Part shown: piece by piece, positions 1-25,458 of the stretch
How the letters are laid out: each line of letters begins with the position of its first letter
How positions within the stretch are numbered: the first letter of the stretch is position 1
DNA from: a virus
IMG/VR virus record: IMGVR_UViG_3300001831_000164
Coordinates: 1 to 28,099 of that record
DNA length: 28,099 nt
Strand: one strand, 5' to 3'
The notes under the pieces: model-generated
Told to the model about the DNA's origin: nothing
Databases searched by the model: none
Seen by the model: only the letters and a program-made list of their open reading frames with translations
Program-made: the position numbers and the translations under genes

Positions 1-3000
1 GGAAATCCAATTTATGGTCCATATGGATATACAAATGCAACTGGTGGTTCTGTAAGAAGAATGAAGTCCAGTTATGAAACACAAGTTACTGGAACCAATA
101 GACCACCAACAACAATTTACCCAGCAGGTTTCTTTGTTGAAGATTATGTCTACACTGGAACTGGTGACCTTGATGAGCACAATGGAAGATACTGCATAAC
201 TCCAGACTATCCAAATGGTGTCTATGCATACTTCACAACTATTAATTTTACAGTTGATTCATCTGGTCCATTCAAGAACTACAGAAGACCTGTCTTCCCA
301 TACCTGATTGGAGATAAGTTTAAGTCAGAACCAAATAATTTCAACTTTAGACTTCAATCAAATCAGGATCATTATGATATTGAAGCATCTGGTCTTCTGA
401 GAAATACTGCAGAATATCACACCAATGATGAGAAGAGTGGATATGACTACATCTTCAATTCTACAAAGGTACAAAAGCAAACCATTGACATTACAGCAAC
501 TTCTACTGGTTCCATTGAGCAAGTGGGAATTCTTACTGGTGGAACAAACTATAGAGTAAATGATAGTGTTTCATTCAATAATGGTTCAACAGGTGGTAGA
601 GATGCTGATGTAAAAGTCTCTAGAGTTCTAGGAAAGCAAATTAGTAGAGTAAGTACTTCTACAACGTCTTTCTATAATGTAGAGTTTATCAGAAATAATA
701 ATTCTTATCTTGGATTTACATCAGTTCCACACAACCTAGAAAATGGAGACACCATACAGATTTCTGGTATCTCCACTTTCTTCAAGGGATTCAATGGTTC
801 TTACACTACAGGAATCAGAAGCGACAATTTTGTTTTAACACTAGGAGTTGGTGACACATCTTCTACTGGTTATGTGGCATATTTCTATGTTTCTGGTGCC
901 CTTCAGTATCCATATATTCGTCCCAATGATGTACTTGGAATTGGAACTGAAAGAGTTAAGGTCTTGAATATAGATCCTATCTCTCAAAGAATTAGAGTAC
1001 TTCGTGCACAAGATGGAACTATAGGTGTTGCTCACACTAATAAGGAAATTTTACTTGAAGATTCAAGAAAGTTCAGAGTCAATATCAGTGGTCTCACTAC
1101 AACAAGATCATATGCAGTCAATGAAGAACTTTATTTTGACCCTGCAGAATCTGTGGGTGTTGGAACAGTATTGTCTACAGGTGCTGGAACAACCATCACA
1201 TTCTCAAATCCTGGTGTTGGAGCAACTCAAGTATTTGTAGAGCCAAGGTCAATTTATTATCCAAATCATGGTCTGAAACTTAATGAGACTATTTCTTACA
1301 ATACCAATGGTGGAGATTCTATTTCTGTATGGAATGGAGCAGTAGGTTCTGCCTTCACATCTTTGAATAACTTCTCTACTTTATATGCAGTACCTCTTTC
1401 TAATGACTTTATTGGTATTAGTTCTAATAAGATTGGACTGAGTAGCACTGGTTATGTTGGTGTAAACACATCACTTTCCCTCCTCTACTTCACATCAAAT
1501 GTTGGAACAGGTGATACACATAGTTTTACCACCAACAAAAATAATGTAATTTCTGGTCAGATATCTCAGAACATTGTTACTGTTTCAACTGCTACCACTC
1601 ATGGTTTAAGTGCAAATGATACAGTTTATATGACAGTTAAACCAACAGGTGAGCAGACTGTTAAAGTTAAGTATGACAAATACAACAGAAGAATTGTATT
1701 TGATCCAAGAAACTTCTCTGCAGGTGATGTAGATACAAACCTCAATACAATTGGTTTTAGTACAGAATATTTTAGTCATGGTGATAGAGTCATTTACACT
1801 TCATCATCACCATCTGGTGGTCTTGTTGATGAGGGAATGTACTATGTCATCCCATACAATGATACTAATGTTAGACTGGTAAAAGAAAAGTTTGAACTTG
1901 ATGCTGCAGAACCAAATTATGTGAACATTACTAGTGCATCTGCAGGAACACTTTCAAAAATTAATCCACTGATTAATTCAAGAAGAAATAATTCACTAGT
2001 ATTTGATCTTTCAGATTCATCATTGGCATTCTTCTACAATAGTCTGCAATATCCTGCATTTGATTTTAATGTCTATTCAGATAAGCAGTTTACTACTAAG
2101 TTCTTTACCTCTGGTCAGTCAAGTACTTTTGAAGTGACTAAGAGTGGAAGTATTGGTGTTGATACTACAGCAAAGGTTACTCTGAAGGTCAGTGATTATA
2201 TTCCACAAAACCTGTACTACAAATTTGAGCCAACAAATCTGAACATTATTCCAGATGTTCAGAGTCAAATCTCCATTGATAATACAGTACATAACTACAA
2301 TGAAATTGGTGTAGTTGCAACAGAGTATGATGGTACTCACACCATATCTGGTGTTGGAACAAATAGTTTCACATATAACATCTCAGTTGCACCAGGTGTA
2401 ACCACCTATACATCTTCAAACTCCAAGTCTTATTATGAGACAAACTCCAGAACTGCATATGGAGAAATCAGACAGTTTAAAGTCTTTGATGGTGGTTATG
2501 GATACAATTCACTTCCTGGAATTACTTCTGTAATTAGTTCTAGTGGAACTGGTGCTATTGTTCAACCAAGTAGCACTAATATTGGAAATATTCTCAATAC
2601 CAGATTTGGTAATATTGGATTTGATTATCCAACTGACAAAACAACAAGAGCAGTTGCTAATCTTCCTGAAGTTCTTAAGATGAATCTCTTGTCTTCATTT
2701 AAGAGCATTGGTATCAATTCAGGTGGTCAAAATTATCTTGTAGCTCCACAACTGGTTGTAGTTGATGGTTTTACAAATCAAGTAGTTACTGATGTTGATT
2801 TGAAGTATGAGATTGGAGACACTCAGGTTTCAATCATCAAGAATACCTCTGGGATGTATAATGTTACACCAAGAATTATTCCAACCTCAAACTCCAATGG
2901 TGTTGGCATCTCATCTCTGACATATACTTCTGGAACAAAAACAGTTAGATTGTATCTTGATACAGAATTTAGTGATGCTATTGATTTCCCATATGAAGTT

Positions 3001-6000
3001 GGTGAAAACATTCTTGTTGAAAATATTAGTGTTGGGATCAACACTACTGGAAAGGGATATAACTCTAAAGACTACAACTATTCCTTGTTCCCAGTTACTG
3101 CACTCAATAGGGCACTGGGCGGTTCTGGAGCATATGTTGAGTATAGTTTGAGTGACTATCTCAGTGGAAGTGACTATCCTGGCAACTTTGATTCTGGAAA
3201 TTCTGCAGGAAGAGCAGTTCCAGAAAAACAATTCCCAGTATTTGATCCTATTTTAGAAATTAATAACTTCTTTGATGATGAAAAGGTCAAAAATGAAGGC
3301 AATTCTGGAACAGTTGAAAGATCAAACAGATTAAATGAATATCTATTTGTAAGTACACCAAAGGAGTTTACTGTAGGAACTAAGGTCGTAGGAGAAAGCT
3401 CCAATACTCAGGGTATTATTGAGAGCAGAAACAACTTTAATGCTCAGATTATTACTGGTGCAGGAGCAACTATCTTTGATGGTTGGCAAACAAATTCTGG
3501 ATTCTTGAATGATAATTATCAAAGAATGCCAAACAATGAATATTATCAGAATCTTTCATATTCATTGAAGTCCAGAGTTCCTTTTGATACTTGGAATGAT
3601 CCAGTAAGTTCTTTAAATCACATTGCAGGTTTTGCCAAATTTGCAGATTTTGTTATTGAAAGTATTGAAGATAGACCTGAGGGTATTGCCAATCCAGAAG
3701 ACAGTTCTATTGAGACAGTTGTAGACATTACTGGTTTTGGATATCTAAACTGCTTCTCTGACTTCGATTTAGTAAGTGAAAATTCAATCAATGTTGGTGG
3801 GCAAATTATTTCAAATGAGATTCTCTTTGATAATACTATTTTGAATGACTACTTTAAGTCAGTTGGAAATAGAGTTCTCTCTATTGATGACTTTAGCAGT
3901 CTCTTCAATAGTGTTCGCAGATATGAGATATATGATACTGTTGCATCATATGAGAGCAACTATATCTACAACAAACTATTCACATTTGCAAAGAATACTG
4001 TTCTTGATGACGAAAAGCAAGCAACTATTGTAACAATTCTGCAGAAAGATGGGATTGGAAAAATTCAAGAGTATGCTGAACTTGAGAGTGGCGCTCCACT
4101 AGGTTATTATGATTACTATGCAGTAGATAATGGATTTGATTTAATATACTATCCAGTAGAGTATGAATATGACAATTACAATACTTCCACTGTTTCCTTC
4201 AACATTTTCGATAATGTTGTTGGTGTTGGTTCTACTAATATTGGAGATGTAGTTTTCATCAATAGTCACAGAACAAATGTTGCTGCTGCTACAACTACTA
4301 CTATTGTTTCAATATCTTCAACCTTTAGATCATCAAAACTTCTGGTCCAACTTGAAAACAATGAAAAAGACTTTGTTGCATCAGAACTAAGTTTGATTCA
4401 TGATGGAACAGATGTGTTCCTCTCTGAGTATGGCAGTATGGAGATGAACAATACTCCTGATTTCATTGGTTTTGGAACCTTTGATGCCTATATCAGCGGA
4501 TCAAATATTAATGTTGACTTTATACCAAATGTAGCAGTTGCTTTGACTGCAAATGCCAATGTAGTTTCAATTTCAAATACATCTGCTGTTGGTGTTTCTT
4601 CAGTAAATCTCGCTGTTTCTGATATAGTCTCATATAAAACTGACATAGCTGCTTCTGGTTCTCCAACAGCAGTTTCAATTGCATCCTTCAATTCACCAAT
4701 TGAAGCATCATATTCTATTGTCTCAGTTGAAGACATGACCAATAGTCAATATGAAATGTTTGAAATGGTTACTCTGGAATCTACTGTAAATGAAGATTCC
4801 TATGTTCAGTATGGTAATGTTTATACTGGTAGTGATAGTCTTGGCACTGTTGGATTTGATACTGCAGGTGGTGGATATCAATTAACATTTACACCAATTG
4901 CAAATGCAGAAATGCAGGTTAGAGTTTACTCTATGCAATTGTTTCTCTATGACAATAATAATGATCCTGGTCAAATTGAATTTAACAATAGCGTAATTGA
5001 TACTGAATCAGGGCAGTTTACAGGAACTCTGTCAGATTTGAAGACATCATTTGGTCTTAATCATGAAGGTCTCCCCATCTTCCAAAGATACTTTAATGGC
5101 AGTGATTCTGGAATTATTGACCTCACAAACAACTTTGTTAAAATTCCACAGCACTTCTTTGTAACTGGCGAAAAAGTATACTATAACTGGGCAGGTGCTG
5201 GAACAACTCAGGCAATTGGTATTGCAACAACTACAGTTCCTGGAATTGGTCTTACAGATAAACTTCCAAATGAATTGTATGTCGTTAAGAGTAGTGATGT
5301 AAACCTTAGGTTCGCTTCTTCTGCTCAAAATGCACTTGCAGAAATTCCAAATACACTTAAACTTACTTCTGTTGGTATTGGTACTTCTCATAGTCTTACT
5401 GCAACCAATCAGAATCCTAAAGTGATGGTTGCTATTGATAATATAATTCAATCACCAATTGTTTCCTCTGGAATCACTGCAACTCTGGATCAAAATATAA
5501 TTTTTGATACTAACTTCAGGTTGAGTGGAGTAACATCTATATTTGCACAAGATCACATTCAAATCAATAATGAGATTATGGTTGTTACTGCAGTGGGTGT
5601 TGGTGGCACTAATAACTTGACTGTCAGAAGAAGACAGATGGGTACAGGAATTGGAACCCATGCATCTGGATCATTGGTCACTAAGATTTCTGGCAACTAT
5701 AACATTGTAGAAAACACTATCCACTTTGTTACTGCACCATTTGGAAATGTTCCTATTGGTGTTGGTTCAACTACTGATCCCGATGCTTATGATTGGACTG
5801 GTATTATTACCAGTTCTACATTCCAGGGAAGAATGTTTATGAGATCTGGTATAACCGGATCCTCTGAGGAGACATATACCAAGAACTATATCTTTGATGA
5901 CATATCACGTGAATTTACTGGAATTCAAAGTAATTTTGTCCTAAGGTCTGGTGGCTCTGATGTTACTGGTATTTCTACAGATAATGCTATCATTCTTATC

Positions 6001-8280
6001 AATGGGATATTTCAAGGTCCTCAAGGTTCTCAACCAATCAATGTTCAGCAAGGTGATTATACACTAGAGGAAAGTGGAATCACAACCATTAGATTCACTG
6101 GTGGTGCAGATAACCCATATGGTTATGATCCAAACAGATCCGACTTACCTGTTGGTGGTCGTATGATCACCATTGGTTCCACAGGAGGATTTGCTTATCA
6201 ACCATTGATTTCTGCTGGTGGTACAGCAACTGTTTCAGTAGCAGGAACTATTCAAACCATTAGTATTGGAAATAGTGGTTCTGGTTATAGAGTAGGTATT
6301 CAAACAATTGTCAATGTTGGAGTTCAGACATACAGTACCGGTACTCCTAATATTGAATTCATTGGTACTGCAGCTATCAGTGGAGGAAACATTGTAAGCA
6401 TTGCAATTACAAATCCAGGATCTGGATACACCTCCACAAATCCACCTCAGGTTATTTTTGATAGTCCACTTCCATATCACAATATTCCACTGATTTACAG
6501 TTCTGAGTCAGTAGTTGGTTCTGGACAAAGTGGAACTATTGATATTGTAGTTGGACAAGGTTCCAGTGTTATTGACTTTGAAATCAGAGATTATGGATTT
6601 GATTATCAATCAGGTGATATTCTGACATTTGCTGTTGGTGGTACAACAGGAATTCCTACAGACACTACTAAAGTGTTCAATGAGTTCCAGCTTATAGTTG
6701 AAGAGTCCTTCTCAGATCAATTTAATGGTTGGTCAATTGGACAACTTCAAGTGCTTGATAATCTTGATTCTCAGTTTGATGGAACACAAACCACATTCTC
6801 CCTCAAGTTAGGAGGAGAACCCTTCTCTGCAGCAACTGAACCAGGATCAAATATTAGTTTGGAAGATGCTCTTCTGGTCTTCATCAATGATGTCATTCAG
6901 GATCCAAAGATTTCTTATGACTATAATGGTGGAAGTAAAATTAGATTTGGAACTGCACCAAAAGCAGGAGACTCTTCTAAGATTATTTTCTACAAGGGAA
7001 CAGGTGATATTGATGTTCAGTTCGTAGACATTCTTGAGTCTATTAAAGTTGGTGATACTCTCAATATTGAAAATAATCCAGCACAAGGTCAAGGTTTAGG
7101 ATTGGATCAGAATGAAAGAACTGTAATTGGAATCAATACAGTTGATAGTGTGAATACCAATCCATACTATGGACCTGGTGTTACTACAGATAGATCACTT
7201 CTGAGACCTGTAACTTGGTGTAAACAAATTGTCGATAAAGTTATCAATGGACAGAAGATTGGAAAGGATAGAATTGAATATGAACCACTGATCTATCCAT
7301 CAGCATTTGCAATCAAGGCAGTTGGAACTGGCACAGATGTTGTATATGTTGATAATCTCAGACCACTGTTCAATGGTACAAATGAGTCCTCATTTAGAGA
7401 TTTCCAAGATGCAATTACAATTAGATCACAAGATACAATTGTAGCTGCTGCAGCAACAGCTGTAGTTTCTGTTGCTGGTACAATCTCATCTCTGATCATT
7501 AATAATGCAGGAGTTGGATATACTGAGGCACCTGAAGTTACTATTGGAAACCCTGTTGGTCTTGGATCAACTCAAAGAGCAAGTGCTACATCTGCTATTA
7601 GTGGTGTAGGAACAATAACTTCTCTAACAGTCACCTCACCTGGAACTGGTTATACCAGCACCAATCCACCTGTGGTCCTTATTGAATCTCCAAAGAGTAT
7701 CATTGAGTCCATTAGTGTTACATCATATGCAGGTGACTATGGAGTAGTTGTTGGAGTTGGAACTACAGTTGTTGCTTCACAAAATCAATTCTACTTTGAT
7801 ACCTTTATCTCTTTAAATTCCTTTATGAGGAATTCTAGTTATGTTGGAACTGCTGTTACAGTAAGTGGAATTTCTACATCTGATTACCTTACAGTATTCG
7901 ACACCAATATTACAATTGGAAGCACTTTTGCATCAGAAGATCAAGATAGTGCAACAATTGGAATTGGAACAACATTCCTTGATTGTGTGTATCAGGTCAG
8001 CAGCTATGAAGACAATGATTTGTTTATTACTGCAGGTTCAACAATTGGTTTTACCACTACTTGCAGAAGAGTATTTGTTAATGTAGATACTGTTGGAAGT
8101 GGAATTGCTTACACAAGTCTTCCAGATATGGGTGAATTTAGTTGGGGCAGAATTAATCTTGGTACAAGAATTGTACCACAGAGTTTCAATGCTCACAATG
8201 ACAATGGTTACACTGGCATTTCAACTTCTGCCCTTGTAACTAGAAGTGCTTCTCTAAAATATAATAATTACACAAGTTGA
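1..8280 (+). CDS. Giant YHYH-domain virion (baseplate/fibre) protein, 5'-truncated by the window edge
   Basis: The reading frame is open from base 1, so the ATG at 61 is internal and the true start lies upstream; 2759 residues are visible. The first ~105 residues look like the C-terminal half of a YHYH-type domain: NPIYGPYGY at residues 2-10, GDLDEHNGRYC near 55-65 and FPYLIG at 99-104. The rest is a beta-rich chain of modules: 'HG(L)xxGDxV' FCCH-like segments near residues 243, 422, 537, 591 and 1717; GxGY-type repeats near 821-840, 2075-2160 and 2481-2567; two copies of a module with a hydrophobic LLVFINDVIQ-like strand near 1966-2040 and 2252-2345; and RxQ-GT-H modules near 305-345 and 1850-1895. 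Its place just upstream of the gp10-like stub and gp8 matches the T4 gp7 slot, but I see no sequence similarity to T4 gp7, so a baseplate-wedge role is inferred from position only. Arginine is written almost only as AGA and CpG is very rare. A virion structural role is likely; the exact role is unknown. Confidence 0.85.
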   Translation, partial: GNPIYGPYGYTNATGGSVRRMKSSYETQVTGTNRPPTTIYPAGFFVEDYVYTGTGDLDEHNGRYCITPDYPNGVYAYFTTINFTVDSSGPFKNYRRPVFPYLIGDKFKSEPNNFNFRLQSNQDHYDIEASGLLRNTAEYHTNDEKSGYDYIFNSTKVQKQTIDITATSTGSIEQVGILTGGTNYRVNDSVSFNNGSTGGRDADVKVSRVLGKQISRVSTSTTSFYNVEFIRNNNSYLGFTSVPHNLENGDTIQISGISTFFKGFNGSYTTGIRSDNFVLTLGVGDTSSTGYVAYFYVSGALQYPYIRPNDVLGIGTERVKVLNIDPISQRIRVLRAQDGTIGVAHTNKEILLEDSRKFRVNISGLTTTRSYAVNEELYFDPAESVGVGTVLSTGAGTTITFSNPGVGATQVFVEPRSIYYPNHGLKLNETISYNTNGGDSISVWNGAVGSAFTSLNNFSTLYAVPLSNDFIGISSNKIGLSSTGYVGVNTSLSLLYFTSNVGTGDTHSFTTNKNNVISGQISQNIVTVSTATTHGLSANDTVYMTVKPTGEQTVKVKYDKYNRRIVFDPRNFSAGDVDTNLNTIGFSTEYFSHGDRVIYTSSSPSGGLVDEGMYYVIPYNDTNVRLVKEKFELDAAEPNYVNITSASAGTLSKINPLINSRRNNSLVFDLSDSSLAFFYNSLQYPAFDFNVYSDKQFTTKFFTSGQSSTFEVTKSGSIGVDTTAKVTLKVSDYIPQNLYYKFEPTNLNIIPDVQSQISIDNTVHNYNEIGVVATEYDGTHTISGVGTNSFTYNISVAPGVTTYTSSNSKSYYETNSRTAYGEIRQFKVFDGGYGYNSLPGITSVISSSGTGAIVQPSSTNIGNILNTRFGNIGFDYPTDKTTRAVANLPEVLKMNLLSSFKSIGINSGGQNYLVAPQLVVVDGFTNQVVTDVDLKYEIGDTQVSIIKNTSGMYNVTPRIIPTSNSNGVGISSLTYTSGTKTVRLYLDTEFSDAIDFPYEVGENILVENISVGINTTGKGYNSKDYNYSLFPVTALNRALGGSGAYVEYSLSDYLSGSDYPGNFDSGNSAGRAVPEKQFPVFDPILEINNFFDDEKVKNEGNSGTVERSNRLNEYLFVSTPKEFTVGTKVVGESSNTQGIIESRNNFNAQIITGAGATIFDGWQTNSGFLNDNYQRMPNNEYYQNLSYSLKSRVPFDTWNDPVSSLNHIAGFAKFADFVIESIEDRPEGIANPEDSSIETVVDITGFGYLNCFSDFDLVSENSINVGGQIISNEILFDNTILNDYFKSVGNRVLSIDDFSSLFNSVRRYEIYDTVASYESNYIYNKLFTFAKNTVLDDEKQATIVTILQKDGIGKIQEYAELESGAPLGYYDYYAVDNGFDLIYYPVEYEYDNYNTSTVSFNIFDNVVGVGSTNIGDVVFINSHRTNVAAATTTTIVSISSTFRSSKLLVQLENNEKDFVASELSLIHDGTDVFLSEYGSMEMNNTPDFIGFGTFDAYISGSNINVDFIPNVAVALTANANVVSISNTSAVGVSSVNLAVSDIVSYKTDIAASGSPTAVSIASFNSPIEASYSIVSVEDMTNSQYEMFEMVTLESTVNEDSYVQYGNVYTGSDSLGTVGFDTAGGGYQLTFTPIANAEMQVRVYSMQLFLYDNNNDPGQIEFNNSVIDTESGQFTGTLSDLKTSFGLNHEGLPIFQRYFNGSDSGIIDLTNNFVKIPQHFFVTGEKVYYNWAGAGTTQAIGIATTTVPGIGLTDKLPNELYVVKSSDVNLRFASSAQNALAEIPNTLKLTSVGIGTSHSLTATNQNPKVMVAIDNIIQSPIVSSGITATLDQNIIFDTNFRLSGVTSIFAQDHIQINNEIMVVTAVGVGGTNNLTVRRRQMGTGIGTHASGSLVTKISGNYNIVENTIHFVTAPFGNVPIGVGSTTDPDAYDWTGIITSSTFQGRMFMRSGITGSSEETYTKNYIFDDISREFTGIQSNFVLRSGGSDVTGISTDNAIILINGIFQGPQGSQPINVQQGDYTLEESGITTIRFTGGADNPYGYDPNRSDLPVGGRMITIGSTGGFAYQPLISAGGTATVSVAGTIQTISIGNSGSGYRVGIQTIVNVGVQTYSTGTPNIEFIGTAAISGGNIVSIAITNPGSGYTSTNPPQVIFDSPLPYHNIPLIYSSESVVGSGQSGTIDIVVGQGSSVIDFEIRDYGFDYQSGDILTFAVGGTTGIPTDTTKVFNEFQLIVEESFSDQFNGWSIGQLQVLDNLDSQFDGTQTTFSLKLGGEPFSAATEPGSNISLEDALLVFINDVIQDPKISYDYNGGSKIRFGTAPKAGDSSKIIFYKGTGDIDVQFVDILESIKVGDTLNIENNPAQGQGLGLDQNERTVIGINTVDSVNTNPYYGPGVTTDRSLLRPVTWCKQIVDKVINGQKIGKDRIEYEPLIYPSAFAIKAVGTGTDVVYVDNLRPLFNGTNESSFRDFQDAITIRSQDTIVAAAATAVVSVAGTISSLIINNAGVGYTEAPEVTIGNPVGLGSTQRASATSAISGVGTITSLTVTSPGTGYTSTNPPVVLIESPKSIIESISVTSYAGDYGVVVGVGTTVVASQNQFYFDTFISLNSFMRNSSYVGTAVTVSGISTSDYLTVFDTNITIGSTFASEDQDSATIGIGTTFLDCVYQVSSYEDNDLFITAGSTIGFTTTCRRVFVNVDTVGSGIAYTSLPDMGEFSWGRINLGTRIVPQSFNAHNDNGYTGISTSALVTRSASLKYNNYTS

Positions 8281-8310: not shown

Positions 8311-8673
8311 ATGGCGAAACAAGGTATTAGTACAGGCACTACGCCTAATGACGGTACTGGTGATTCCCTGTTTACTGGGGCAGAAAAAATCAATGACAAT
8401 TTTAATGAACTCTATGCTGTAGTTGGTAATGGTACTACAACTTTTGTTGGTATTGTTTCGCAAATCACTGCAGGTAACAATGTAAGCATTTCAACTGCTT
8501 ATGGTTCTGTTGATGTTGGTGTTTCAACCAACATCAATACAACTGGTATTATTACTGCTACAGGTGGATTTGTGAGTACAGCAAATACAACTCCTATTCA
8601 GATCACACTTTCGGGGAGTACATTAACCTTCACTGCAAGTGGAATTGGATCAACTAGCTTTACATTATCCTAA
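8311..8673 (+). CDS. Small virion protein with a gp9/gp10-type N-terminal motif
   Basis: This 120-residue protein starts with a stretch (residues 7-37) carrying the motif DGTGDSLFTGAEKINDNFNE followed by LY. The N termini of T4 gp10 (DDGTGDYL..GG.KINENFDELY) and gp9 carry the same motif, where it helps attach fibre-type proteins to the baseplate. Everything that follows gp10's first ~35 residues is missing: the remainder is a short beta-rich tail with the tag TGIITATGGF near residues 77-86, which recurs in two distal fibre genes. It sits 30 bases after the giant gene and 25 bases before gp8. The start has only a poorly placed AGGA (8306-8309), one base before the ATG. It is probably a connector or adaptor at the baseplate edge; the assignment to gp9 or gp10 specifically is unsafe. 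Confidence 0.75.
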   Translation: MAKQGISTGTTPNDGTGDSLFTGAEKINDNFNELYAVVGNGTTTFVGIVSQITAGNNVSISTAYGSVDVGVSTNINTTGIITATGGFVSTANTTPIQITLSGSTLTFTASGIGSTSFTLS

Positions 8674-8698: not shown

Positions 8699-10258
8699 AT
8701 GGCAGCGATAATTACTGACCAACTTCGTATTTTGAATGCAAAGAATTTTGTTGCTGGAGTTCAATCTAGTTCAAATTCTTATTATACATTTATTAGCATT
8801 CCTAATTCTAACGATTATCAATCTGATTGGGACACAAATCCCCCCTCTCCCATTGATAATTTTGAGCAAGACAATAATGTCTATTGGGATGGAATGTTGG
8901 CCCTGAAAAAGATTGCGCCAAGTGATGTAAGTCAGGTTGTTAGAAAAACAACTTGGACTTCAGGTGTAACATATGATATGTGGAGGAATGATATTAGTAG
9001 AGATAACCCATCGCAACCATCTGGTGTTTTTGATATCTATGCTGCAAATTTTTATGTAATGAACTCTGACTACAGAGTTTATGCTTGCCTTTTTAATAAT
9101 GCAAATCCTGAAAATAATTATCAAGGTGGACCTTCACTAGATGAACCAACATTTACTGATCTAGAACCAAGAGCTGCTGGTTCTAGTGGTGATGGATATA
9201 TTTGGAAGTATCTCTACACAATTAGTCCATCACAAGCAATTAAGTTTGATTCAATAAACTATATTCCCATTCCAACCAATTGGTACACCAATAGTACATA
9301 TGCACCTGTTAGAAATAATGCAGCAGCAAGTGGACAGATAAAAGTTGTAACTATTAGAGAAAGAGGAGTTGCTATTGGAGATGCAAATAAAACATATACC
9401 AGAGTACCTATTTTAGGTGATGGTGAAGGTGCAGAAGCAACTATTGTAATTAATAATGATTCCCAAGTAGAGAGTGTTACAGTATCAAAGGGTGGTTCTG
9501 GTTATACTTTTGGAACTGTTGATTTAGAAGCTGGTGGTGTTCCTGCTGGTACAACTGCTCCAGTCTTTAATGTAATCATCCCACCTCCTGGTGGACATGG
9601 TGCTGATATTTACAGGGAGTTGGGTGCATATAATGTTCTGACTTATTCTAGATTTGAGAATGATACTGAAAATCCAGATTTTGTTACTGGTAACCAGTTT
9701 TCTGCTGTAGGATTAGTAGAAAATCCAAAATCATATGGATCCGCAACAAACCTAACATTAGATAAAGCAAGTGCACTTTATGCACTTAAATTGACTGGAA
9801 CAGGTTATAGTTCTGCCACATTTGTAGCAGACTCTGAAATCACACAAACTGTTGGTGTTGGTTCTACTGCTGTTGGTAGAGTTGCATCATATGACCAACT
9901 GACTGGAGTATTGAAGTATTGGCAAGATTACTCTCTTGCAGGATTTAATACTAATGGCACAGCAAATACTGATCCAGAATATGGTTTCCATCTGAACAGA
10001 TTTACTGCAGATATTAACTCTGGAGGAAGTTTCACTATAATTGGTGGAAGTGTAAATCTAGCAATTCAAACCAGTTTTCAGGGTGTGTCGACAGTAATAA
10101 ATAGTAGGACATACTATCTTGGTCAGAATTTTGTAGATGGTGTTTCTCAACCTGAGTCTGAGAAATACTCTGGAAACATCATTTATATTGACAACAGACC
10201 TTCAGTAACAAGGTCTTCCTCTCAGAAAGAAGACGTAAAAATTATCTTGCAGTTCTAA
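8699..10258 (+). CDS. 8: Baseplate wedge protein gp8
   Basis: Recognised as T4 gp8 by conserved segments. These are an N-terminal part with a YYTFISIP strand near residue 27 and a W(D)GMLALKKI region near 63-72; a GDGYIWKYLYTI segment near 164-175 (T4: GDGYVWEYLFEI); and a C terminus SGNIIYIDNRP...EDVKIILQF (T4: GEMIYMENRP...EEINILFTF). In T4, gp8 dimers sit in each baseplate wedge and bind gp10, gp7 and gp6. At 519 residues it is far longer than the 334 of T4. The extra length lies between the GDGYIW segment and the conserved C terminus and includes a GxGYT module (KGGSGYTFG near 263-271) shared with gp14 and both giants in this window. It starts ATGGC with an A-rich leader and no clear Shine-Dalgarno. 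A six-base gap separates it from the next gene, so the two are probably cotranscribed. Confidence 0.93.
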   Translation: MAAIITDQLRILNAKNFVAGVQSSSNSYYTFISIPNSNDYQSDWDTNPPSPIDNFEQDNNVYWDGMLALKKIAPSDVSQVVRKTTWTSGVTYDMWRNDISRDNPSQPSGVFDIYAANFYVMNSDYRVYACLFNNANPENNYQGGPSLDEPTFTDLEPRAAGSSGDGYIWKYLYTISPSQAIKFDSINYIPIPTNWYTNSTYAPVRNNAAASGQIKVVTIRERGVAIGDANKTYTRVPILGDGEGAEATIVINNDSQVESVTVSKGGSGYTFGTVDLEAGGVPAGTTAPVFNVIIPPPGGHGADIYRELGAYNVLTYSRFENDTENPDFVTGNQFSAVGLVENPKSYGSATNLTLDKASALYALKLTGTGYSSATFVADSEITQTVGVGSTAVGRVASYDQLTGVLKYWQDYSLAGFNTNGTANTDPEYGFHLNRFTADINSGGSFTIIGGSVNLAIQTSFQGVSTVINSRTYYLGQNFVDGVSQPESEKYSGNIIYIDNRPSVTRSSSQKEDVKIILQF

Positions 10259-17721: not shown

Positions 17722-17943
17722 ATGACACTTATTCCAGTAAAGGGCAAAGATGGTTTTTATAGAGATAGCAAAACTAATGCTATTGTAAATAAGAACCATC
17801 TTGAATTTGAATCTTATGTTTCTGCTAGACAGAAGATGAATTCCGAAAAGGAAAAAGTTGATTCTATGGAGATTGAGATGGCAAACATCAAACGAGATCT
17901 GGATGAAATCAAAGAACTCCTACGTAAAGTAATTCAAGGGTAG
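17722..17943 (+). CDS. Small coiled-coil protein upstream of gp13, function unknown
   Basis: The 73-residue protein starts two bases after the stop of the DUF4815 gene. The N-terminal half (VKGKDGFYRDSKTNAIVNKN) resembles a short beta-hairpin. The C-terminal half, from about residue 36, is charged and helical with a heptad spacing of hydrophobic residues (M, I, M, I, L, I, L, L, V, I), so a coiled coil is likely. It sits immediately before gp13, where T4 has the fibritin gene wac, also a coiled-coil protein, but there is no sequence match I can point to. Tight spacing suggests translational coupling to the upstream gene. It could be a small virion or assembly protein. Protein existence is well supported; the function is not known. 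Confidence 0.75.
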   Translation: MTLIPVKGKDGFYRDSKTNAIVNKNHLEFESYVSARQKMNSEKEKVDSMEIEMANIKRDLDEIKELLRKVIQG

Positions 17944-17975: not shown

Positions 17976-18833
17976 ATGGCGCAGCCTTCTACTAGACAAG
18001 AATTAATTAATTATTCCCTGCGACAGTTAGGTGCTCCTGTATTAGAAATCAATATTGCTGATGAGCAAATCAGTGATTTGGTTGATGATGCTATTCAGAT
18101 GTATAATGAAAGACACTATGATGGTGTCACACAAGTCTACCTGAAGTATGAGGTTACTCAGGCAGATGTAGATAGGGGAAAAGCACGTCCTCCTGGAAAG
18201 GGTGGAGGAACAGTTGGTATTGCTTCAACATCTGCAACTGCAAATATTGTAGGAACAGCAACTACATTTACATATTATCAAAACTCCAATTATCTTCAGG
18301 TTCCTCCCAACATCATTGGAGTTAATAAAATTTTCCAATATGACAATGCTCAATCATTGAGTATGTCAAATATGTTCAGTTTCAAGTATCAGTTGTTCTT
18401 GAATGACATTTACTACTGGGGAACTACTGATCTCTTGTCATATTCTATGGCAATGAGCTATTTGGAAACTCTGAACTTCCTTCTCAATACACACAAGCAA
18501 ATCAGATTCAATATCAGACAAGATAGACTGTACCTTGATATTGACTGGTCTAATCTGAGAGTTGGTGAAATTATCATTCTTGACTGTTGGCAGCAAATGG
18601 ATGGTAATGAGTTTAATAGAGTCTGGAATGACAGATTTGTGAAGAAATATTTGACTGCTCTGATGAAGAGACAGTGGGGTATGAATTTGATTAAGTTTCA
18701 GGGTGTAAAACTTCCTGGTGGTGTGGAACTTAATGGAAGACAAATTTATGATGATGGTCAAAAAGAAATTGATGACATTCTCCAAGAAATGCCAACCACA
18801 TATGAACTTCCCCCATTAGATATGATAGGTTAA
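17976..18833 (+). CDS. 13: Neck protein gp13
   Basis: Recognised as T4 gp13. The N terminus has a (Q)ELINYSLRQLGAPVLEINI segment near residues 8-26 (T4: ELKDVILRRLGAPIINVEL), followed by DQ/EQISD..DDAIQMYNERHYDGV near 29-50 (T4: [22 protein letters not shown]). The C-terminal part has NRVWNDRFVKKYLTALMKRQ near 212-231 and a KLPGGVELNGRQI segment near 246-258 (T4: MLPGGVTIDGQRL), ending in PP..G. At 285 residues it is close to T4's 309. In T4, gp13 and gp14 form the neck at the portal vertex, close the filled head and allow tail joining. It starts ATGGC. The stop is four bases before gp14, and the two are likely a transcription and assembly unit. Confidence 0.95.
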   Translation: MAQPSTRQELINYSLRQLGAPVLEINIADEQISDLVDDAIQMYNERHYDGVTQVYLKYEVTQADVDRGKARPPGKGGGTVGIASTSATANIVGTATTFTYYQNSNYLQVPPNIIGVNKIFQYDNAQSLSMSNMFSFKYQLFLNDIYYWGTTDLLSYSMAMSYLETLNFLLNTHKQIRFNIRQDRLYLDIDWSNLRVGEIIILDCWQQMDGNEFNRVWNDRFVKKYLTALMKRQWGMNLIKFQGVKLPGGVELNGRQIYDDGQKEIDDILQEMPTTYELPPLDMIG

Positions 18834-18837
18834 TTAG

Positions 18838-20340
18838 ATGCTCAATCCATTTTTTCAACAGGGTTCTAAAACAGAGCAAAGTCTTGTTCAAGACTTAATC
18901 AACGAACAGTTGAGGATGTATGGCGTTGAGGTATATTACCTACCAAGAATATATGCAAATACAAATACAGTAATCAGAGAGGTTATCCAATCTGAGTTTA
19001 CAAATGCATATCCACTAGAGGCATACGTTGACAGTTATGAAGGATATGGTGGACAAGGAACAATCCTTTCCAAGTTTGGTATTCAAGAGTTGGATGATTT
19101 GACTCTTATTATTTCTCAAGAAAGATATTCAAATTATATTACACCTTTGGCTAAAAATATTATTAATATTGAATTAGAAACCAGACCAAAGGAAGGTGAC
19201 CTGATTTATTTCCCATTGGGAGACAGATTATTTGAAATTAAGTATGTTGAGCACGAACAACCATTCTATCAACTACAAAAAAATTATGTCTACACACTGA
19301 GATGCTCACTCTTCAGATATGAAGATGAAGTTATTGATACTAATGTTGATGAGATTGATAATGAGATTGAACAACTTGGTTACATTCAGACACTTACTTT
19401 AGTTGGAACAGGAAGAACTGCTAGAGCAGTTGCAACATTCTGTGGGGATGGTGCAGTTACTAGAGTCCATATTACTAATATGGGTAGTGGATATACAAAA
19501 CAACCTATCATTGGATTCTCTTCAGCACCTGCAGGAGGAGTAACAGCTGTTGGTATTGCATCCATCACCACAAGTTACATTGGTTGTGGAGGTTTCAGCA
19601 ATAGTGGAAAGATTGAGGCTATCAATCTCATCAATCCTGGATGCGGATATACTGTTCCCCCTTGGATCACAATTCAAACACGTGATGGTGATACAGGAGT
19701 TGGTGCTGCTGCAACTGCAAGTATTGAGACAACTACAGGATCAGGTTCAATCAGTGGCATCATTACAGTCACAGATGGTGGTGCAGGATATACCACGAAT
19801 CCAAGGGTTACATTTGATGCACCAATTCCAAATTACCCAACATTTGATGTCGATTATAACAGCTTTGACCAAACAAATTATACATTTGACAACAGAGGTC
19901 CTGTAGGATTCTCAAGTGCTTATGGTATTGGTATTATCAATACTGCTGGTATTGTAACTGCTGTTTATGTAAGTTATGCAGGTGCTGGATATGCACTCAC
20001 TTCAAGACCTGCTGTCATCATTGATCCGCCAACAGGAATTGGAGCAACAATTGGTATTGGAACCTTCATCTTCAATGAAATTGTAACTGGTCAAACTTCT
20101 GGCACAACTGCAAGAGTTAAGAAGTGGACTGCATCTACAAATCAACTTGAGATTTCTATTGTTGATGGAACATTTACTCCAGGAGAAATCATTGGTGGTC
20201 AAGAGTCTGGAGCATACTACACTATAAGAGTACAAAATACGGATGATCTTGTAAGTGGATTTGCAGATAATGATACTATTGAGACTGAAGCAGATTCAAT
20301 CATAGACTTTAGTGAAACTAATCCTTTTGGAATGCCTTAA
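18838..20340 (+). CDS. 14: Neck protein gp14 with a large internal insertion
   Basis: The first ~175 residues match T4 gp14: EQLRMYGVEVYYLPR near residues 22-36, SYEGYGGQGTILSKFGIQ near 65-82 and RPKEGDLIYFPLGDRLFEI near 115-133, followed by FYQL. The last residues (SETNPFGMP) resemble the T4 end (ESSPFDNDFMD). Between them lies about 280 residues absent from T4 gp14, which has 256 residues against 500 here. The insert holds four GxGYT repeats near residues 215, 268, 315 and 382, then two GE/GQ-x-SGA repeats near 413 and 447. Thus the neck fold seems kept while a repetitive beta-rich appendage was inserted before a conserved tail. Such an appendage at the neck could serve as a collar or whisker decoration; this is inferred. 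It starts four bases after gp13 with a weak AGG at 18827-18829. Confidence 0.93.
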   Translation: MLNPFFQQGSKTEQSLVQDLINEQLRMYGVEVYYLPRIYANTNTVIREVIQSEFTNAYPLEAYVDSYEGYGGQGTILSKFGIQELDDLTLIISQERYSNYITPLAKNIINIELETRPKEGDLIYFPLGDRLFEIKYVEHEQPFYQLQKNYVYTLRCSLFRYEDEVIDTNVDEIDNEIEQLGYIQTLTLVGTGRTARAVATFCGDGAVTRVHITNMGSGYTKQPIIGFSSAPAGGVTAVGIASITTSYIGCGGFSNSGKIEAINLINPGCGYTVPPWITIQTRDGDTGVGAAATASIETTTGSGSISGIITVTDGGAGYTTNPRVTFDAPIPNYPTFDVDYNSFDQTNYTFDNRGPVGFSSAYGIGIINTAGIVTAVYVSYAGAGYALTSRPAVIIDPPTGIGATIGIGTFIFNEIVTGQTSGTTARVKKWTASTNQLEISIVDGTFTPGEIIGGQESGAYYTIRVQNTDDLVSGFADNDTIETEADSIIDFSETNPFGMP

Positions 20341-20379: not shown

Positions 20380-21381
20380 ATGTTTGAGTATTTTTATAAC
20401 GAGATCTTCAGATCTGTAATTATTGGATTTGGTTCTCTCTTCAATGGAATCGAAATTAAGCACAAGGATGCTAGTGATGACACTTTTAGTGTAATCCAGG
20501 TTCCTCTTGCTTATGGACCAACTCAGAAGTTTCTTGCAAGAATGAAGCAAGAGGCAGATCTGAATAAACCAATTCAAATGACGTTGCCAAGAATGTCATT
20601 TGAATTTATTGGTCTTACTTATGATCCAACTCGTAAGTCTACTCAAATACAAACTATTATCAATCAGACTCCTGATGGTGCAAATTTGAAGAGGAACTAC
20701 ATGCCAGTTCCTTATAATATGGCATTCAAACTTTCAATCATGACAAAGTTGAATGATGATATGCTTCAAATTATTGAGCAGATTCTTCCATACTTTCAAC
20801 CATCATATAGTCTTCCCATTAATTTTCTTGGCAACTTAAAAGAAAAAAGAGATGTTGCCATCCAATTAGATTCTATTGAAATGGATGATGATTATGAAGG
20901 CAACTTTGATACAAGAAGAGCACTTATTTATACCCTAAACTTTACTGCAAAAGTTCACCTGTTTGGTCCTATTGCAGATGTTACTGGAGATATCATCAAG
21001 AAGGTATCTGTTGGTTACATTGCTGGTTCAAGAGGAACACAAGCAGCTGCAAGAGATCTTACATATCAAGTTACTCCAAGAGCAACTAAAGATTACAATG
21101 GCAGTGTTGTCACAACATTGGCACAAAATGTCAATCTTGTTGAAACCGTTCTTGATGTTGCAGATGGAACTGCAGTTACAGCACAGACATACATCTATGT
21201 TGGTCAAGAAGAAATGTATGTTGAATCAGTAACTGGCAATAAGATCACTGTTAGAAGAGCACAAGATAACACCACACCACAAAATCATGTTCTTGGTGCT
21301 GCAGTGAATAGCATTACTGCAGCAGATGATGCTCTTATCGAGTTTGGTGATGATTTTGGTTTCAATGGAAGTGTTTTCTGA
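20380..21381 (+). CDS. 15: Tail sheath stabiliser and completion protein gp15, C-terminally extended
   Basis: Recognised as T4 gp15. It starts MFEYFYNEIFRS (T4: MFGYFYNSSFRR) and has LPRMSFEFIGLTYDP near residues 69-83 and the hallmark DDMLQIIEQILPYFQP near 126-141 (T4: DDMFQIVEQILPYFQP), then KRDVAIQL. The T4 end region (VPRDIDPEDWDGTVKQTF) is matched by TPRATKDYNGSVVTTL near residues 232-247. The protein then continues for ~85 more residues, to 333 against 272 in T4. This extension contains a module (VGQEEMYVESV, ITVRRAQDNT, NHV) that recurs in both giant proteins of the window. In T4, gp15 caps the tail tube and sheath as a hexamer and contacts the neck. The extension could reach neck or collar components; that is inference. 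Confidence 0.95.
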   Translation: MFEYFYNEIFRSVIIGFGSLFNGIEIKHKDASDDTFSVIQVPLAYGPTQKFLARMKQEADLNKPIQMTLPRMSFEFIGLTYDPTRKSTQIQTIINQTPDGANLKRNYMPVPYNMAFKLSIMTKLNDDMLQIIEQILPYFQPSYSLPINFLGNLKEKRDVAIQLDSIEMDDDYEGNFDTRRALIYTLNFTAKVHLFGPIADVTGDIIKKVSVGYIAGSRGTQAAARDLTYQVTPRATKDYNGSVVTTLAQNVNLVETVLDVADGTAVTAQTYIYVGQEEMYVESVTGNKITVRRAQDNTTPQNHVLGAAVNSITAADDALIEFGDDFGFNGSVF

Positions 21382-22512: not shown

Positions 22513-25458
22513 ATGACTGCACCAGTAATTCAGTTTAAAAGGGGTGCTTTTGTAGATCTGCCCGGATTGAGGCAGGGTGAACCGGGATTCACTACTGATA
22601 AGTACGATTTTTATGTTGGACTTACATCAGAAACTTCGACTAATCAGTTCTTTGGATCTGGTCGCTATTGGGGTAGAGAAGACGGTACTAACGCTCTAAC
22701 CTTCAAATTAGTCGATAAAGACGGATCCAATAGCATCAACCTCAAATCCCCGAATACTTTATCGGGAATCACAACATACACTTTTCCAGGTTCACCAACA
22801 GCAAATAAGATTTTGCTAACAGATGGAGATGGAAATCTGTCTTGGACAGATACTATTTCTTCTGATATAACCATCAGTGGCATTTTGACTGCTACTGGTG
22901 GTTTTAATATTGGTATTAATTCTGGCGGATCTGCGATTACAACTGGACCAGTAAAAAATCTTAATTTTATCGGGGCTGGAAACACTTTCTACTACAATCC
23001 ATCAACAGATACTGTTGATATTTCCATTTCTGGAGAAGGTAGCAGTTTAACTCTTGGTTCAGCAACAGATGGGGACTTGGTAACTCCTGGAGCACTCAAT
23101 ACTTTTACAAGCTCAACAAGGATTGTTGATAGTATTGATGATTTAAATGAGTTAGCACTCAATATAATGAAGAACACTGCAGTGTCTGGTCTTGATTTTT
23201 CAACATCACCAACTGCTGGAGGATCTCCATTTTCAGTTACGCTTACTACCTCCGCCACCGGTAATCCAAATAGTTACATTATTGATTGGGGAGACGGAAC
23301 TACTGAGACAACTTCAGATTCAACTCCAAGTCACACCTATACTGAGAATAATGGCGGACAGTTTACCATCGCAATAACTGCTCTTAACACTTCTGGTGCT
23401 GGTGCGGGAAGTTCATTCTCAACTACAAAAACAAATTATATTACAGTATATACACCAGATCCATCTGTTAGTTTTGCACTTTACAGAGCTAGCAGTGGTG
23501 GAAGTGCATTGAGTGGAAACGACCTTTATGTTGTTGAAGGTCAATCCCTTTACATGGACAACAACACAACAAATACTTCTGTTGGTGCTGGTGTCACTTA
23601 TACCATAAATTGGGGAGACGGGTCATCAAATGATGAGATCTCAAGTGATACTGTTGGTGGTGGTGCGAGTACAACTGCTGCAAGACTCCAACATACCTGG
23701 GCTCAGGGAACCAACAGTTCTACAAGCAGAGATACATTAACGCTGACACTAAACAGTCACAGCACAGCAAATCCATCTTCAATCCCAGCAACTGGAACAG
23801 TAACTCTCAAAGTTTACGATGATGCTCCAACTGCTCCTGATGGATTAAGCAGCAAAACACTCTCCAACGTTTCTAGCACAGGAACATCACCAAAACTTGC
23901 TTCTGGATTTACCGACAATACTGGTGGTGCAACATTAAGTGCTGGAGATAATGTAAACAGATTAACTTCTGGAACGGCAACTGCTGGACCAATTACAACC
24001 TTTGCATATGACGCCGACAATGGAACTCTTACAGCAAATGTAAATGGTTCCTCTGATGGATCGAGAGCATTGACCAGTGGTAATGACTCTGGAACTTATA
24101 CAAGTTTGGTTATTGACTCGGAAAGTGATTATCAATTACTCAACTCTGGTGGTTCGAGCACAACATTTGCTAACAGCATTTATCATCCAGGTCTCTATAA
24201 GGGATTCAAAGCGAGAGTGGCAAAGTCAGTTGCTGGATTGTCTACTGGTGTGAACAGTATGCAACTGTCACACAGCACTACAGGAAATACAAACACAGTT
24301 GAATTTGTAAAAGATGATCTAACAGCAACTCCAACAGTTGACATTTCGAGTGCTACATTAACTGAAAATACTGCAGGTACGTATAGATACGTTTCTGGAA
24401 TTCCATACTACAATACAGGATCTCCAAATTTAACATTATCTGGAGTAACAGTCACCAACTTAGTTGGACAATGTTACACAAACCAAAGTGACATTGTTGA
24501 AGTTGATGATGGAACAAATCAAGAGAGCACATCAGCCAACGCAATCACCAATAGTGGTTACACTTACTCTCAGATTGATGGCGCTTCGTCAATGTTAAGT
24601 GGAAGTATTCCAGTTGTAAATACTGGAACATCAAGTGCTTATGCGATTGGTGATCTGACTGTGCCGATCACTAGTTCTAGTGTAAGAACTGTAAGTAGAG
24701 TGATGGTTCGTGCTAAGAACGTAAATGGAACAAGTTCTTACACAAGCGATATTGCAACTAATGTTCAAGTTCATACCGCATCCCAAAGTGGTATTAGTGA
24801 AGTTGGAATTGCTGTTGCTGATGCTCTAGGTGCTACTTTTGATGATGATGGTGTAAGGGTATTTAATTTTGCCTCAGCAACAACGGATACTCCTTCCTTC
24901 AATGGATCAACAAACTTCTACACAAACAACCTTTATACAGAATCTTCTGATCCAGGCATTTCAACCACAAGAGAAGCCACAGTAAGAATCGGCAAAATCA
25001 TACATGATGAAACCGATTATTCTTCTGGTTATCTCCCTGCTGGACCAGATCTTTCGTCTGGTAGAAGTGGAGATCAATACTTTACTTTTGCCTTCAGAAG
25101 AACTTCGACCGCAAACTTCGATATCAATATTACAAGTGGTGGTATTGCTGGTCTTTGGATTGCTGCTCCAGGATCCAATATTGATACTACAAGTGGATTG
25201 AATGGTTGGTTGAGAGCAGATACTGCTTATGCTGGTGCTGGTACACCAGGAAGTGGATCGGGTGGTAACGGAAGTGATGGATGTGCATACAACAGTTCGG
25301 ATAGGATTGTTGCTTCCACTTCATTGAGTGGTGGTTATACAATGACTCTTGGTGAAGAAAACATGAGTAATGCAACAGGAAATGTTGTGTTAGTTAGAAT
25401 CGCTCTAACATCAGGTCAATCTGTAACAGCACTTAGCATTGGGGAGGCAGTAGTCTAA
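22513..25458 (+). CDS. PKD-domain tail fibre / adhesin
   Basis: The 981-residue protein begins with IQFKRGAFVDLPGLRQGEPG (residues 6-25) followed by FTTD, the pattern of the N-terminal beta-prism part of Mtd-like receptor-binding proteins. It then carries the fibre tag SGILTATGGF near 121-130. Two PKD-like Ig folds follow, each marked by WGDG: near residues 259-262, with SHTYTENNGGQFTIAITALN downstream, and near 367-370, with LQHTW downstream. A long Ser/Thr/Gly-rich middle leads to a distinctive C-terminal region from about residue 855. This region has YFTFAFRR, GGIAGLWIAAPG, TSGLNGWL, a Gly/Ser-rich loop (GSGSGGNGSDGCAYN) and TMTLGEENMSNATGNVVLV, and is a plausible receptor-binding tip. PKD folds typically act as stalks or carbohydrate-binding spacers in surface proteins. 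CpG and CGN codons are clearly more frequent than in the genes before it. A host-recognition role is inferred. Confidence 0.85.
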   Translation: MTAPVIQFKRGAFVDLPGLRQGEPGFTTDKYDFYVGLTSETSTNQFFGSGRYWGREDGTNALTFKLVDKDGSNSINLKSPNTLSGITTYTFPGSPTANKILLTDGDGNLSWTDTISSDITISGILTATGGFNIGINSGGSAITTGPVKNLNFIGAGNTFYYNPSTDTVDISISGEGSSLTLGSATDGDLVTPGALNTFTSSTRIVDSIDDLNELALNIMKNTAVSGLDFSTSPTAGGSPFSVTLTTSATGNPNSYIIDWGDGTTETTSDSTPSHTYTENNGGQFTIAITALNTSGAGAGSSFSTTKTNYITVYTPDPSVSFALYRASSGGSALSGNDLYVVEGQSLYMDNNTTNTSVGAGVTYTINWGDGSSNDEISSDTVGGGASTTAARLQHTWAQGTNSSTSRDTLTLTLNSHSTANPSSIPATGTVTLKVYDDAPTAPDGLSSKTLSNVSSTGTSPKLASGFTDNTGGATLSAGDNVNRLTSGTATAGPITTFAYDADNGTLTANVNGSSDGSRALTSGNDSGTYTSLVIDSESDYQLLNSGGSSTTFANSIYHPGLYKGFKARVAKSVAGLSTGVNSMQLSHSTTGNTNTVEFVKDDLTATPTVDISSATLTENTAGTYRYVSGIPYYNTGSPNLTLSGVTVTNLVGQCYTNQSDIVEVDDGTNQESTSANAITNSGYTYSQIDGASSMLSGSIPVVNTGTSSAYAIGDLTVPITSSSVRTVSRVMVRAKNVNGTSSYTSDIATNVQVHTASQSGISEVGIAVADALGATFDDDGVRVFNFASATTDTPSFNGSTNFYTNNLYTESSDPGISTTREATVRIGKIIHDETDYSSGYLPAGPDLSSGRSGDQYFTFAFRRTSTANFDINITSGGIAGLWIAAPGSNIDTTSGLNGWLRADTAYAGAGTPGSGSGGNGSDGCAYNSSDRIVASTSLSGGYTMTLGEENMSNATGNVVLVRIALTSGQSVTALSIGEAVV
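25441..25447 (+). promoter_or_regulatory. Shine-Dalgarno for the 532-residue fibre gene, inside the preceding gene
   Basis: GGGGAGG lies in the last codons of the PKD fibre gene, 12 bases before the ATG at 25460. It is the strongest purine-rich site in the window and explains how the next gene can start one base after the previous stop. Confidence 0.5.

Follow-up and report, generated by a model that had tools for sequence, protein, structure and literature searches.

What occupies the long middle of a neck stopper whose two ends are conserved, and what could it do there? The question is raised by gp14, the neck/stopper protein (head closure Hc2) encoded on a 28-kb IMG/VR virus fragment (28,099 nucleotides, the whole record), hereafter the window. 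The gene spans positions 18838-20340 on the plus strand, which carries all gp13, gp14 and gp15 features given below, and encodes 500 residues (PF11649, E 3.8e-33; phrog_460, E 7e-125).

Conserved ends of a T4-type stopper

The T4 gp14-type stopper core (residues 1-168; 18838-19341) is delimited by sequence and by structure: Pfam T4_neck-protein covers residues 1-174 at 115.4 bits against a curated cut-off of 25, T4 gp14 sequences from the PDB align with residues 2-168, and VIA matches the core to T4 gp14 (9lu5_M) with a Z of 13.3 over 138 residues, at 39% identity and an rmsd of 4.7 Å. These limits bear out a first-pass annotation of the locus, which had run the core to about residue 175 and had proposed an alignment of related gp14 proteins to see where the additional residues begin. 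In our alignment of 19 phages they begin after the core, at a conserved linker or helix around VDEIDNEIEQLG (residues 169-182; 19342-19383), of which the insert-free Salmonella phage SFP10 has the counterpart TGVSEIDDID. The identified neighbors give the gene order gp13-gp14-gp15-gp16, as in T4. The nearest named relatives come from cyanophages P-TIM68, S-B43, S-SM2 and P-SSM2, with P-TIM68 gp14 60% identical over its full length, and the window protein is the stopper of a T4-like cyanophage of the Kyanoviridae type.

A conserved C-terminal tail (residues 470-500; 20245-20337), defined by alignment, a tail count and pairwise comparison, ends in FADNDTIETEADSIIDFSETNPFGMP. Tails of the NPF, SPF, PFG or PFD type close 248 of the 250 complete gp14 proteins, from isolates and IMG/VR, in our wider set, where sampling follows queries (best 80 per scan) and counts are therefore not natural frequencies; the exceptions are SFP10 and a Campylobacter phage. 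SFP10 gp14, at 213 aa, consists of the core followed almost directly by a related tail. By analogy with T4, the tail would be the end that docks on gp15. Since such a tail closes these 248 proteins, a plain C-terminal extension is ruled out, and the repeats lie between conserved ends, as the annotation had placed them. Its description of the tail as T4-like holds for the conserved PF-type ending, but outside the PF pair the tail matches SSPFDNDFMD, the C terminus of T4 gp14, only weakly. The insertion itself, put at ~280 residues, is indeed absent from T4, Vibrio K575, Aeromonas Aswh_1 and SFP10, but measures ~300 residues; with ~300 of 500 residues between core and tail, it nearly doubles the protein, as had been stated. 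T4 gp14 (PF11649; PDB 9lu4-9lu7, 9mkb) thus shares with the window protein the core fold, the order 13-14-15 and a short acidic/PF C-terminal tail, whereas its plain C-terminal tether of ~75 residues stands where the window protein has a barrel-plus-array cassette of ~300.

A repeat array nested in a small barrel

The intervening stretch comprises an array of ~210 residues and a barrel of ~70. The array (residues 196-405; 19423-20052), delimited by motif counts and indel comparison, has four units, marked by the GxGY motifs GSGY at residue 216 (19483-19494), GCGY at 268 (19639-19650), GAGY at 315 (19780-19791) and GAGY at 382 (19981-19992). Four such motifs compare with 0.37 expected from shuffles, none of 500 reaching that number, and the two SGA-type motifs (residues 421 and 457) with 0.08 expected (3/500 shuffles). 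The first-pass annotation had counted four GxGY and two SGA repeats side by side; the counts stand, but the SGA pair belongs to one barrel that encloses the array.

This barrel begins with the strand IQTLTLVG (residues 183-190; 19384-19407), ahead of the array, and continues after it (residues 408-468; 20059-20241). VIA matches to single small barrels extend over model residues 182-468, with ~70 residues aligned, and use strands that lie before as well as after the array; hence the barrel encloses the array. The first strand has a mean identity of 0.76 and no indels, unlike the array. Moreover, a profile HMM of the SGA barrel matched 245 of 250 gp14 proteins, in most of them at 32-44 residues from the C terminus; the five without a match are all non-cyanophage controls. 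The SGA motifs belong to a single fixed barrel, and independent repeats of equal status are thereby ruled out. When the insert alone was modeled with AlphaFold (pLDDT 79.6, pTM 0.67), array and barrel were well modeled, the array being predicted as all-beta without a coiled-coil fiber. Confidence is low at the insert junctions, and placement of the insert on the neck is therefore by analogy.

Distribution and exchange among relatives

Gp14 proteins form a size series. The insert region is absent from T4 (256 aa), Vibrio K575 (276), Aeromonas Aswh_1 (268), SFP10 (213) and the Campylobacter phage (215), and the ~300 intervening residues are missing in Ackermannviridae gp14. S-RIM44 (292 aa) and P-RSM3 (308) possess only a ~70-residue piece bearing both SGA motifs, and the gp14 of locus L126 is also of this barrel-only form. 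In S-RIM2, S-RIM8 and ACG-2014j (374-390 aa), two GxGY-type units lie within the ~70-residue SGA piece; in P-SSM2, P-TIM68, S-SM2, Bellamy, S-B43 and the window (470-500 aa), a longer array precedes it. S-CAM9 gp14 reaches 657 aa, that of Sf-FS3 763 and metagenomic relatives up to 1109, so that barrel-bearing proteins range from 0 to 8 array units and from 292 to 1109 aa; 77 of the 250 proteins have the barrel without an array. Members of PHROG 460 (cyanophage head closure Hc2, including P-TIM68, S-B43, S-SM2 and P-SSM2 gp14) share family and cassette with the window, but differ in array length and units. Residues 182-500 used as a query matched 254 records, all cyanophage or marine. Judged from these sequences, the barrel is fixed in cyanophage gp14, and the array is the variable part.

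A search of BFVD with the gp14 model also returned A0A5S9C1A0 and A0A1W7GKQ7 from Tenacibaculum phages PTm1 and pT24. Both the 619-aa 'neck protein' of PTm1 and the 552-aa protein of pT24 match the model, and other marine myophages may therefore have long neck proteins.

Two different loops of the barrel receive arrays. At site A, used in the window's clade, the array follows the first barrel strand; at site B, used by S-RIM2, S-MbCM6, ACG-2014j and locus L178, it follows the strand GEEIVG. In a quick core tree with many weak nodes, a single branch sets the 84 site-A rows apart, and three changes are required to account for the site-B arrays among lineages that have only the barrel. Closely related pairs can differ widely. 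For example, L101 and L178 have cores 95.8% identical, almost identical tails and flanking DNA of 80-85% identity, with 126 versus 206 residues after the core; L208 and L249, with cores 95.3% identical, have 481 versus 290, ~190 apart. Across 57 relatives, almost all gp14 indels are located in the array, the mean number of indel columns per pair being 18.4 there, against 0.4 in the core, 0.0 in the barrel and 0.8 in the tail. Mean pairwise identity is 0.77 in the core, 0.49 in the array, 0.53 in the barrel and 0.66 in the tail, and median dN/dS, over pairs that are not independent, is 0.10, 0.44, 0.38 and 0.22, respectively. These comparisons indicate that the array has been inserted, lengthened, shortened and exchanged, and that core and tail stayed conserved. 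In MK tests on one wild cyanophage lineage, gp14 was among the genes with a positive-selection signal, of a kind that the authors considered indistinguishable from false positives (PMC5112629).

The same repeat type recurs in the window. The baseplate ORF at 61-8280 contains 8 GxGY motifs versus 1.3 expected and itself matches phrog_460 (E 1.4e-17), and the gp8 ORF at 8699-10258 contains 3 versus 0.2; the repeat type is therefore common to several structural proteins. Together with the high indel load and raised dN/dS of the array, this sharing could mean neutral expansion, whereby GxGY repeats recombined among structural genes, from baseplate to neck, and were tolerated on a loose tether. We consider this improbable: the array dN/dS of 0.44 is well under 1, several glycines and prolines and a GY tyrosine of the array are invariant across 75 sequences, and the array was retained in 84/84 rows of one large clade.

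Folds and related modules

Foldseek returned no solved relative of the insert with E below 0.001, and a profile of the insert gave no significant match among PDB sequences. The best VIA matches of the barrel, T4 gp7 (Z 7.5) and aIF2-gamma domain 3 (Z 6.5), are weak and unspecific; those to gp7 and to domain 3 of aIF2-gamma/EF-Tu may reflect only a common barrel arrangement. They give little encouragement to a further thought, that the fixed barrel forms a second gate under the stopper ring, replacing the Hfq hexamer that T4 takes there from its host. In favor of this, only cyanophages have the barrel as a fixed part, and it starts a few residues past the core, near the T4 gp14-Hfq contact S177 (PMC12270204); even so, we give such a gate only the slightest of chances.

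For the array, VIA pointed to T4 gp18 domain I (3fo8/3foa residues 99-188; Z 6.0, 75 residues, 2.8 Å, 20% identity), which is an outward-facing domain of the sheath. Its resemblance, to residues 208-298 of the window gp14, is weak, and it carries GSNY/GKNY motifs. Homology between the two was rejected, profile support being nil (no match with a single-unit HMM; HHalign probability 0.8%).

Pfam found no Laminin_G, lectin or carbohydrate-binding domain in the window gp14, and no Ig family either, nor was an Ig family among the VIA matches listed. Within the insert of Sf-FS3 gp14 (L088:2995-5286), Pfam does identify Laminin_G_3 (E 2.9e-7), and the 1109-aa gp14 of another locus (L229:1566-4895) probably holds a divergent LamG-like domain, as its sequence suggests, which received no Pfam call. 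Ig-like domains are known as decoration domains inserted in phage structural proteins. The gp14 cassette shares with them its in-frame, lineage-sporadic occurrence in virion parts that are, or here would be, exposed, and its spread over different structural proteins; it differs in the module, GxGY beta-repeats nested in a barrel, and in the site, the neck stopper. It would belong with the decoration modules inserted in phage structural proteins.

Whiskers and the neck of cyanophages

The first-pass annotation recognized no whisker gene and suggested that the insert is a built-in replacement for the fibritin whiskers of T4. The first point stands and extends beyond the window: fibritin phrog_1056 has no match there at E up to 10, gp14 itself matches no fibritin family, and two fibritin profiles, which do detect the positive controls T4, Vibrio K575 and Aeromonas Aswh_1, found nothing along the full length of 13 cyanophage records, of which 12 are of genome scale. 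The suggestion drawn from it fails on three counts: where fibritin docks, how whiskers and insert are distributed among phages, and the fold predicted for the array. In T4, the docking site for fibritin is domain III of gp13 (residues 193-238; PMC12270204). This domain of ~45 residues is present in the wac-positive T4, K575 and Aswh_1 and missing in SFP10 and every aligned cyanophage gp13, including that of the window (285 aa; 17976-18833; identified by family match and the gp13 alignment), so that cyanophages lack both whisker and socket. The gp14 site corresponds instead to the tether to gp15: residues 178-256 of T4 gp14 are disordered in the free neck and bind gp15 in the virion, making new, extensive contacts (PMC12270204). 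Furthermore, SFP10 has neither whiskers nor insert, and S-RIM44-type cyanophages have no whiskers and only the ~70-residue barrel, so the absence of whiskers and the presence of an array are uncoupled. The all-beta fold predicted for the array also differs from a coiled-coil fiber. We therefore reject whisker replacement, which we hold to be very improbable.

T4 fibritin (wac) and the neck fibers of A-1(L) do share the insert's location on the neck. Both differ in kind: fibritin is a separate trimeric fiber docked on gp13, and the A-1(L) fibers are separate trimers docked on gp5 (PMC10966104), whereas the insert is part of the stopper protein. The literature searched, which took in few subscription papers, held no description of whiskers, or of inserts in gp14, for T4-like phages of marine origin, and we found none in it of the nesting and exchange that the sequences suggest for the gp14 cassette.

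Several other genes of the window and its relatives deserve mention. At the T4 wac position, a 73-aa ORF (17722-17943) matches the virion structural protein phrog_473; its C-terminal half is likely coiled-coil, with no similarity to fibritin seen. Downstream of gp16, a 981-aa ORF (22513-25458) has a PKD domain and a weak Mtd N-terminal-like match, and is likely a fiber-like protein. A 120-aa ORF at 8311-8673 retains only the N-terminal domain of T4 gp9/gp10 (PF07880) and is a much shortened baseplate connector. S-CAM9 gp13 (373 aa, L087:1871-2992) carries a separate insert of ~90 residues near residue 80.

The neck-tail joint and a possible brace

Next to gp14, the gene for the tail sheath stabilizer/terminator gp15 (20380-21381; family match and alignment), partner of the gp14 tail, encodes an extra domain of its own. 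It comprises ~74 residues (242-315; 21103-21324), before the conserved DDFGF tail, and was defined by the gp15 alignment and a locus count. The domain is present in S-SM2, P-TIM68, Bellamy, S-B43, S-CAM9, Sf-FS3 and P-RSM3, and absent in P-SSM2, S-RIM2, S-RIM44 and T4; it occurs at 102/132 loci with a site-A array versus 1/76 other cyanophage loci, a comparison confounded by descent.

Such an addition at site-A loci could also mean a brace at the joint: barrel and array would pack on gp15 and on the uppermost part of the sheath, making the connection of neck and tail stiffer, without a binding role. The T4 counterpart segment contacts gp15 extensively in the virion (PMC12270204), the gp15 domain lies beside the gp14-binding part and occurs mostly in array-bearing lineages, and the fixed barrel shows no indels. 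The array, however, is absent in 77 of 250 proteins, varies widely in length and differs between near-identical cores, and a part that is absent, variable and exchanged is not what is expected to bear a load. Moreover, the two additions come apart, as P-RSM3 has the gp15 domain without an array and P-SSM2 the array without the domain. A brace is thus possible but, to our minds, somewhat unlikely.

A proposed decoration cassette on the gp14 tether

The reading we favor, and to which we assign about an even chance, is an exposed, exchangeable, two-level decoration cassette on a flexible tether, with the array as a surface for weak contacts. By analogy with T4, barrel and array would sit on the tether between the gp14 ring core and the tail-docking end; since the insert interrupts this tether, it would be expected outside the neck-tail joint. 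In T4, the corresponding stretch is disordered in the isolated neck and runs along gp15 in the virion; on that account, six copies of the insert would project outward from the neck where gp14 meets gp15, after tail attachment. That an array may be missing, varies in size and has been exchanged suggests an exposed surface on which changing pressures act. Less surely, the array might bind weakly to glycans, on the host surface or in the environment, or to neighboring virion parts, as other inserted phage decoration domains are thought to do. The Laminin-G-like domain at the same place in Sf-FS3 fits adhesion, and the repeats shared with the baseplate ORF and the added gp15 domain also speak for such a cassette; the window's array, with no recognizable lectin or carbohydrate-binding domain, and the insert, with no solved relative by Foldseek, speak against it. 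The cassette is probably adhesive or reinforcing. A bolder version seems to us unlikely: the stopper of marine cyanophages would be a general port for exchangeable adhesion modules, with the fixed barrel as a socket into whose loops GxGY arrays or lectin-like domains are taken up by recombination, so that the head-tail joint gains a host- or particle-binding surface independent of the tail fibers.

Tail fibers are the usual place for the fast-changing exposed parts of phages. In the present case, abundant ocean viruses have an essential ring protein with constant working ends and a swapped middle, and the neck probably serves as a changeable outer surface. Its relatives provide a natural series for structural work on the neck, with no insert, barrel only and barrel plus array. 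If the cassette is both exposed and adhesive, it would give cyanophages a second variable surface.
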